This document shows positions 32,853-35,469 of a stretch of DNA of 64,000 nucleotides, in pieces. The stretch spans positions 16,657 through 80,656 of the forward strand of contig JAHLFK010000002.1 of NCBI GenBank assembly GCA_018883805.1, in the 5' to 3' direction. The translations under genes were made by a program, and so were the position numbers. This DNA comes from Candidatus Limosilactobacillus merdavium (GTDB lineage: Bacteria > Bacillota > Bacilli > Lactobacillales > Lactobacillaceae). Every line of letters starts with the position of its first letter. Position 1 is the stretch's first letter. The notes below the pieces were generated by a model. That model was not told where the DNA came from. It did not search any database and worked only from the letters and a program-made list of their open reading frames with translations.

Positions 32853-33869
32853 TTGGCAAACCAGGATGAACACGAAATTGTTTCTGGAGAAACTACGGGG
32901 AAAGATGAAGCTGCCCTCGAATTGACCCTCCGCCCCCAAACTTTGGCCGAATATATTGGTCAGACAAAGATTAAACATGAATTAGGAGTGTATATCAAAG
33001 CTGCTAAAGAACGTGAAGAAGCGTTGGATCATGTTTTACTTTATGGACCTCCTGGACTAGGTAAGACAACCCTAGCAATGGTTATTGCAAACGAACTTGG
33101 GGTCAATATAAAGACGACAAGCGGGCCAGCAATTGAAAAGCTTGGAGATCTAGTTGCCTTACTAAACGAATTAAAACCCGGTGATGTCCTATTTATTGAT
33201 GAAATTCACCGCCTGCCTAAAGTAGTTGAGGAAATGCTTTACTCTGCGATGGAAGATTACTATATCGATATCGTAATTGGGGAAGGACCAACCGCCCACC
33301 CAGTTCATTTTCCACTGCCACCATTTACATTAATTGGTGCGACCACCCGTGCTGGGATGCTTTCGGCACCATTGCGGGATCGATTCGGGATTGTTGAGCA
33401 TATGAATTACTATAACCAAAGTGAATTAACTAAGATTATTTTCCGCTCTGCCAAGATCTTTCAAACTAAGATTGAAGATGAGGGGGCACATGAATTGGCC
33501 CTTCGCTCTCGTGGAACACCCCGAATTGCTAACCGATTGTTAAAGCGAGTTCGGGATTTTGCCCAAGTTGCTGGAAAAAATTCAATTGATTCGTCAAGTG
33601 TTCAGCAGGCATTAAAATTACTCCAAGTTGATGATCAGGGACTTGATGAAACTGATCGAAAGCTTTTGTTAACCATGATTAATTATTACCATGGGGGACC
33701 AGTTGGGTTAAAAACGATTGCTGCAAATATTGGAGAAGAAAAGTCGACGATTGAAGAAATGTATGAACCATATCTCTTGCAGATCGGTTACTTAACGCGA
33801 ACTGCGCGAGGGCGGATGGTAACTGCAGCCGCATATAAGCACTTGGGGATTGAGTACCCAACAAAGTGA
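32853..33869 (+). CDS. ruvB: Holliday junction helicase RuvB
   Basis: [26 protein letters not shown]. Confidence 0.98.
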
Positions 33870-33876
33870 GGTTAAT

Positions 33877-34914
33877 ATGAGTAGTCATTTTGAAGTTAAA
33901 TTTTCTTCAGACAATAGGCGGAATGGAGAACTCGTTACTGATAGTGGTAACTTGCCAACTCCTTTGGTCGTTCATTCGGCTTCAATTTCCCGTTACCTAA
34001 ATACAAAACAAATTGTCGCGACGGGAACAAAAGCGTTGTTCTGTGATCCAATTCAGTTAGCTGAAGAATTGGGTGAACGTGATTTAGAACAGCTTCCGAA
34101 TATGAAACAGTTATTAAATTGGGAAGGACTCCTTTTTGCTACACCAGGTGCTGATGAAATTAGTAAGTTAGCAAAGCCACGAGGTTATAAAAAGGATGGA
34201 GTTAATTTCCGTTTACCTAGTTCTGGTCAGTTGGAAAAAGTGACGCCACAGGGAGCCATTGATTTACAAAAGAAGATTGGTGCAGATGTAATTGGTGAAC
34301 TTTACCGAAATGTTGATTACTATGCTCCAGTTGATGATTTAGCAGCTGGGGTAACAACCACCAATAGTTGGCGTCTTAATGAAAAGGACACATTATTACC
34401 GATTAATGGTGGTGGGTTAAAGGAACTGCATGAAGAAAGTATTGCTGCGTTAAATGAACAAGGACTTGGTTACTTTATTACCCAGGTAGATCAAGTTGAT
34501 ACAACTGCTGAAGAAGAACGGGACCTTTTATCAATTTTGGCGCTCCTACCAACCGATAAATTACGGGTTACCAAAGTTAAAGCTAATTTGGAACAGCTGA
34601 AGGTCGCTCTTCATTCAGGAATAGATATTGTTTACTCAGATGTTGCTGCTCATGAGGCTAAGATGGGAAATGCAATAGTTGAAGATGGTAAGCGGCTAAA
34701 TATCGATCGCGCTCATTTTGGTAGTGACTATCAACCAATTGAAGAAGGGTGTCAATGTCCGGTTTGTTCGAGTAGAGTAACTCGTGCCTATTTGTACTAT
34801 TTGAGCAAGACACATGCACCGCAAATAGAGAGTTTATTGTTAGAACATAATCTTTATTGGTTGAACCGATATGTAGGTAATTTTCAGTTAGCTAATAATA
34901 GGTCAGAAAATTAA
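33877..34914 (+). CDS. Divergent tRNA-guanine transglycosylase-like protein, predicted catalytically inactive; Zn motif kept
   Basis: Collinear similarity to TGT: GELVTDSGNLPTP, KKDGVNFRLPSSG..TPQGAIDLQKKIGADVI, SGIDIVYSDVAAHEAKMGNAI, CQCPVCSSRVTRAYLYYL...EHNLYWLNR; sits at the tgt position before yajC. Confidence 0.8.
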   Translation: MSSHFEVKFSSDNRRNGELVTDSGNLPTPLVVHSASISRYLNTKQIVATGTKALFCDPIQLAEELGERDLEQLPNMKQLLNWEGLLFATPGADEISKLAKPRGYKKDGVNFRLPSSGQLEKVTPQGAIDLQKKIGADVIGELYRNVDYYAPVDDLAAGVTTTNSWRLNEKDTLLPINGGGLKELHEESIAALNEQGLGYFITQVDQVDTTAEEERDLLSILALLPTDKLRVTKVKANLEQLKVALHSGIDIVYSDVAAHEAKMGNAIVEDGKRLNIDRAHFGSDYQPIEEGCQCPVCSSRVTRAYLYYLSKTHAPQIESLLLEHNLYWLNRYVGNFQLANNRSEN

Positions 34915-35007: not shown

Positions 35008-35469
35008 GTGAACGGGTTAAACTTTTTGAACCTTGGTGCTGCTTCAAGTAGCGCTAGCAGTTATTCAGGTATGATTTTAATCATCTTGATGATTGCTTTA
35101 ATGTATTTCTTTATGATTCGCCCACAACAAAAGCAGCGGAAAGAACATCAAGACATGATGAGCAAACTGCACAAGGGTGATGAAGTTGTTACAATTGGTC
35201 GGATGCACGGGAAGATTGATTCAATCAACCGTGAAGACCGGACAGTTACTTTAGACTGTGAAGGAATTTACTTAACCTTTGATATGGTCGCAATTGCACG
35301 GGTAGTTAAGTCAGCTGATCAAGAAAATGAAGAAAAAACTGAAAAAGCTGAAAAGGCTACTAGCGAAGAAAGCCAACCAACTTCAGATACAAAAGAAACT
35401 TTGGCCGCTTCAGATTCTGCAGAAGATGAAAAACCAGCAGCATCTGACGCTGATAATGACGAAAAGTAA
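35008..35469 (+). CDS. yajC: Preprotein translocase subunit YajC
   Basis: MYFFMIRPQQKQRKEHQDMMSKLHKGDEVVTIGRMHGKI; acidic tail. Confidence 0.95.
   Translation: MNGLNFLNLGAASSSASSYSGMILIILMIALMYFFMIRPQQKQRKEHQDMMSKLHKGDEVVTIGRMHGKIDSINREDRTVTLDCEGIYLTFDMVAIARVVKSADQENEEKTEKAEKATSEESQPTSDTKETLAASDSAEDEKPAASDADNDEK

Follow-up and report, generated by a model that had tools for sequence, protein, structure and literature searches.

What does a protein built like tRNA-guanine transglycosylase (TGT) do once the residues of its active site have been replaced? This question is raised by a gene of Candidatus Limosilactobacillus merdavium, located in a window of 64,000 nucleotides (the whole stretch of DNA that was analysed) from a Limosilactobacillus genome whose assembly comprises 1.36 Mb and is 82% complete. 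The gene, referred to here as TGT*, and its surroundings are laid out as follows:

32853..33869, plus strand: ruvB, directly upstream of TGT* in 50/50 genus loci (open reading frame and locus comparison)
33865..33871, plus strand: Shine-Dalgarno-like stretch AGTGAGG, overlapping the ruvB stop codon (read in the sequence)
33877..34914, plus strand: TGT*, a TGT-fold protein of 345 aa (PF01702 match, AF2 model and Foldseek match as given below)
35008..35469, plus strand: yajC, directly downstream of TGT* in 50/50 genus loci (open reading frame and locus comparison)

The reading frame is real and intact, as the first-pass annotation had claimed, and encodes 345 residues plus a stop codon; the 346 aa reported there had counted the stop. 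The Shine-Dalgarno sequence of its own that had been attributed to the gene would correspond to the AGTGAGG stretch, and the proposed housekeeping position was borne out by the same-strand order ruvB-TGT*-yajC in every one of the 50 genus copies. In relatives, queA usually lies between ruvB and tgt.

The Pfam TGT model PF01702 covers the whole protein (2.9e-41, 142.1 bits against a cut-off of 26.3), and by this score homology to TGT is far above chance. The superfamily model TIGR00449 is likewise passed (126.8 against 47.6 bits), but the Tgt equivalog model TIGR00430, with a cut-off of 306.75 bits, is missed at 120 bits, and ten further genus members (27.7–280.6 bits) also remain below it. TGT* is thus a member of the TGT superfamily that fails the tests for the Tgt enzyme. 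A confident AF2 model (pLDDT 94.3, pTM 0.92), computed with 27 window and locus sequences as input, has Zymomonas mobilis TGT (3uvi) as its best match in the PDB (Foldseek, TM 0.87). The model, the match and the residues themselves indicate that the TGT barrel and its inserted zinc subdomain have been retained, so that the full-length likeness to TGT first seen by eye was upheld by profile and by model. The nearest named relatives are the proteins of Limosilactobacillus avistercoris, portuensis, vaginalis, urinaemulieris and fastidiosus (52–55% identity), followed by those of reuteri, oris, pontis, panis, frumenti and others (33–39%).

Residue equivalences were obtained by aligning TGT* to Z. 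mobilis TGT (3uvi). The nucleophile of TGT is D280, and D102 is its other catalytic aspartate (PMC6165067). The positions concerned are:

34141..34143, plus strand: T89, at the position of D102 (general base)
34303..34305, plus strand: Y143, at the position of D156 (base pocket)
34405..34419, plus strand: N177, at the position of Q203, followed by the motif G178-G-G-L181 (alignment and conservation)
34480..34485, plus strand: T202 and Q203, at the positions of G229 and G230 (base pocket loop)
34633..34635, plus strand: Y253, at the position of the nucleophile D280
34750..34848, plus strand: zinc subdomain, C292, C294, C297 and H324, with all four ligands present

The claimed loss of D102, D156 and D280 is therefore correct for this protein, and further replacements are found at Y106 (D93), M260 (K233) and R286 (H259). 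The zinc motif, which had been described as kept, is an intact Cys3His set, with C318, C320, C323 and H349 of the Z. mobilis enzyme corresponding to C292, C294, C297 and H324. Among the motif pairings given by the first-pass annotation the residue changes stand, while the strings paired at D102 and at GGLAVGE are one residue off, without consequence.

Loss of all three aspartates applies to the window species and 23 others (24/50 genus copies) and does not extend to the whole genus, since 12/50 copies, those of panis and of the reuteri group including L. reuteri itself, retain them. No copy (0/50) combines D102, D156, Q203, G230 and D280, and a complete preQ1 site was found in none. For comparison of conservation, the copies were grouped into a main clade of 34, a three-species group (L002–L004) and a divergent group of 13. 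Asp occupies the D280 position in 26 of the 34 main-clade members; in the three-species group, Glu replaces D280 and Lys or Gln replaces D102. The zinc ligands are retained in 39/50 copies. The 11 without them (L037, L039–L041 and L044–L050) imply four or more changes when mapped onto the tree of ruvB, and their frames are still open.

The divergent form is a genus-wide trait. It is present as a single copy in 50/54 Limosilactobacillus genomes, with match scores of 36–287 bits throughout; among 109 genomes sampled from the rest of the order, every match scored 487–573 bits and 9 genomes had none, so that no score falls between the two ranges. A family-level sample gave the same split, except for two genomes of other genera (G213 and G334) with the gene in two pieces; each has two weaker TGT matches, which may stem from a canonical gene that is broken or split. 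TGT was wholly missing in the sampled genomes of eight genera of the family (g23, g24, g26, g28, g32, g34, g36 and g37). A 1258-bp contig labelled Corynebacterium (L107, from a metagenome-assembled genome) carries a Limosilactobacillus-type fragment, which is probably contamination. Four genus genomes lacked a match: G012 and G023 (ruvB missing too), G026, where the contig stops just after ruvB, and G049, a near-complete genome. The last shows a clean deletion, leaving a gap of 88 bp between ruvB and yajC (L114:1131-1219), and TGT* is accordingly dispensable there.

The pathway that TGT serves has disappeared from these bacteria. QueA was found in 0/54 Limosilactobacillus genomes and not in the host assembly either, and neither precursor importer was detected in the 46 genus genomes searched (QueT 0/46; YhhQ family 0/46 over the cut-off). 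Limosilactobacillus, whose species occur in the gut and in fermentations, has lost the queuosine tRNA-modification pathway.

TGT* evolves fast and is nevertheless constrained. Its median pairwise identity is 0.31, compared with 0.81 for ruvB, yet twelve close pairs from distinct subclades gave dN/dS values of about 0.10–0.29 (ruvB ≤0.03), as expected under purifying selection, and a pair without zinc ligands (L037/L039) gave 0.107. The frame is open in 50/50 copies; internal stops in some genus matches turned out to be natural stop codons beyond which the profile match had been extended. A decaying pseudogene was rejected in view of dN/dS, open frames and synteny, and the general decay in relatives that would have marked a dying gene was not seen. 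Separate trees of TGT* and of ruvB yielded the same main groups. This congruence implies vertical descent in place, and horizontal replacement was rejected. On its residues, TGT* would be a pseudoenzyme under selection, and because it is intact under selection, a new job is probable.

Only 36 of the 206 columns invariant in canonical TGT are still conserved in the main clade (n=34), where 24 positions carry newly conserved residues. Seven residues, P151, D153, D154, G178, G180, E212 and R215, are invariant in all 47 copies of the main and divergent groups. Two segments deserve attention:

34165..34197, plus strand: residues 97-107 (KLAKPRGYKKD), a basic loop spanning the counterpart of the tRNA-gripping loop L98-I104 of E. 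coli TGT (alignment; PMC13416341)
34327..34341, plus strand: P151-V-D-D-L155, with P151, D153 and D154 in 47/47 copies; canonical TGT has Tyr at D154

When E. coli TGT binds tRNA, its loop L98-I104 takes on an ordered form and packs by stacking against the flipped A37 (PMC13416341). Its equivalent in TGT* comprises residues 98-104 (LAKPRGY), and A99, K100, R102, G103 and K105 are invariant in genus group A2. Loop 97-107 has a net charge of –1.27 in canonical Lactobacillaceae TGT, whereas the three genus groups reach +4.03, +2.33 and +3.00; this gain is the highest of all 11-residue windows in two groups and among the highest in the remaining one. Basic residues outside the active site of the E. 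coli enzyme, K285, K292 and R320, which touch the tRNA stem, abolish tRNA attachment when mutated (PMC13416341); two of their counterparts in TGT* are not basic (N275 and G282), and the third is K311. Z. mobilis TGT likewise fails to conserve K285. The aromatic residues of the canonical dimer interface are not conserved in TGT*, and the basic loop might pair internally with the new acidic residues D153 and D154.

We hypothesize that TGT was exapted after the loss of queuosine into a chaperone or regulator that binds tRNA or another structured RNA without exchanging a base, a reading to which we assign a probability of roughly 0.55. The ancestor of Limosilactobacillus would have lost queuosine tailoring (QueA) and precursor import (QueT, YhhQ). 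Its sole chromosomal tgt, instead of being deleted as in several related genera, would have stayed between ruvB and yajC and taken on a role without base exchange. The barrel and, in the window species, the zinc subdomain would have been retained while the D102/D156/D280 machinery disappeared along with the preQ1 pocket, and the loop by which the canonical enzyme holds the kinked anticodon loop would have become the strongly basic AKPRGxK loop. Base exchange would thus have been given up, with the grip on RNA kept and strengthened. The replaced residues suggest the loss of base exchange, the charge reversal of the tRNA-facing loop lends indirect support to RNA binding, and a chaperone or regulatory role appears most likely. 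Counting against this reading are the two non-basic counterparts of K285 and K292, the possible internal pairing of the basic loop, the absence of the zinc ligands in 11/50 copies, the clean deletion in G049 and the unconserved aromatic dimer interface.

The newly conserved residues can also be read another way, in which the barrel was rebuilt as an enzyme or sensor for another ligand or chemistry, with a new site at the mouth of the old one. K100, R102, G103, K105, Y148, PVDDL, GGGL, E212, R215 and S254 are candidate residues of such a site, and the 24 newly conserved main-clade positions, the seven residues at 100% in 47 copies, the location of many of them in loops after barrel strands (DSSP) and the frequent Asp at D280 in the main clade all fit it. 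The excess of conserved residues facing the mouth, calculated for the pooled set, depends however on the threshold chosen (p = 0.04, 0.18 and 0.32 for the three used) and is not robust, and the catalytic Asp positions vary freely between relatives; we consider this reading possible but doubtful. We are as tentative about its broader form, in which a genus-wide, fast-evolving family derived from TGT would use a rebuilt mouth site (AKPRGxK, PVDDL, GGGL and ExxR) to recognise a different RNA or a small ligand in bacteria that lack queuosine, whether or not a new chemistry is involved. Much less probable is a dead relic that lost its function along with queuosine and has been drifting since, its frame surviving by chance or through tolerance of the operon. 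The low median identity relative to ruvB, the repeated loss of catalytic residues and the clean deletion in G049 are what such drift would leave; the dN/dS values, including that of the zinc-less pair, and the uniformly open frames are not, and many related genomes without queuosine have no such gene at all.

Retention of the three aspartates in 12/50 relatives could mean that TGT*, in the reuteri group at least, still works as a TGT whose site has been rearranged. All 12 of these copies nonetheless lack Q203, F106, M260 and E235, the window species has Thr, Tyr and Tyr at the three positions, no tested member reaches the Tgt equivalog cut-off, and neither QueA nor a known preQ1 importer was found in the genus; continued TGT activity is very unlikely on these grounds. 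The first-pass annotation had also considered a non-catalytic, QTRT2-like subunit of a heterodimeric TGT. The manner in which catalytic residues have been lost recalls QTRT2, in particular the substitutions of L002–L004, but a subunit needs a catalytic partner, and a profile search found no second TGT-family gene in the 82%-complete host assembly, nor did PF01702 reveal a catalytic TGT in the 50 genus genomes that carry a copy. This suggestion lost its footing with that result and is the least credible, at the edge of what we would entertain. Exaptation into an RNA-binding protein that no longer exchanges bases is accordingly the reading that we prefer.

No prior description of TGT* was found in the open-licence full-text literature. 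Non-catalytic TGT is already known in the form of eukaryotic QTRT2, which works in a pair; a stand-alone bacterial form was not found described there. TGT* amounts to a natural experiment on how a tRNA-modifying enzyme is recycled after its pathway is lost, with about 50 species presenting a gradient of active-site decay, among them the genetically tractable L. reuteri. Superfamily models still label these genes tgt, and genomes may be scored as users of queuine or preQ1 on that basis, probably wrongly. One survey assigned queuine use to 297 gut genomes, perhaps including Limosilactobacillus, on the strength of qTGT and nothing else (PMC6593275); its classification deserves to be rechecked in the light of TGT*.

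Compared with known systems, TGT* shares with bacterial Tgt (Z. mobilis, E. coli) the full-length fold, the Cys3His zinc site, the ruvB-yajC neighbourhood and a vertical origin, and differs from it in the replaced D102/D156/D280 and base pocket, in missing the TIGR00430 cut-off, and in a genomic context where QueA, QueT and YhhQ were not found. To the archaeal TgtA/ArcS and phage DpdA branches it has distant superfamily homology (TIGR00432 14 bits, far under the cut-off); a defence-related DpdA-like gene was rejected, as PADLOC returned no Dpd match and its best hit (12.5 bits) was to a different model. The closest parallel in kind is QTRT2, in which the TGT fold and the zinc site persist although the catalytic residues have been dismantled (Asp279 to Glu and Asp105 to Cys; PMC6165067), although its sequence match is limited to the C-terminal zinc region of TGT* (residues 273–333). 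Whereas QTRT2 partners the catalytic QTRT1, TGT* stands without a partner, as a stand-alone bacterial counterpart.
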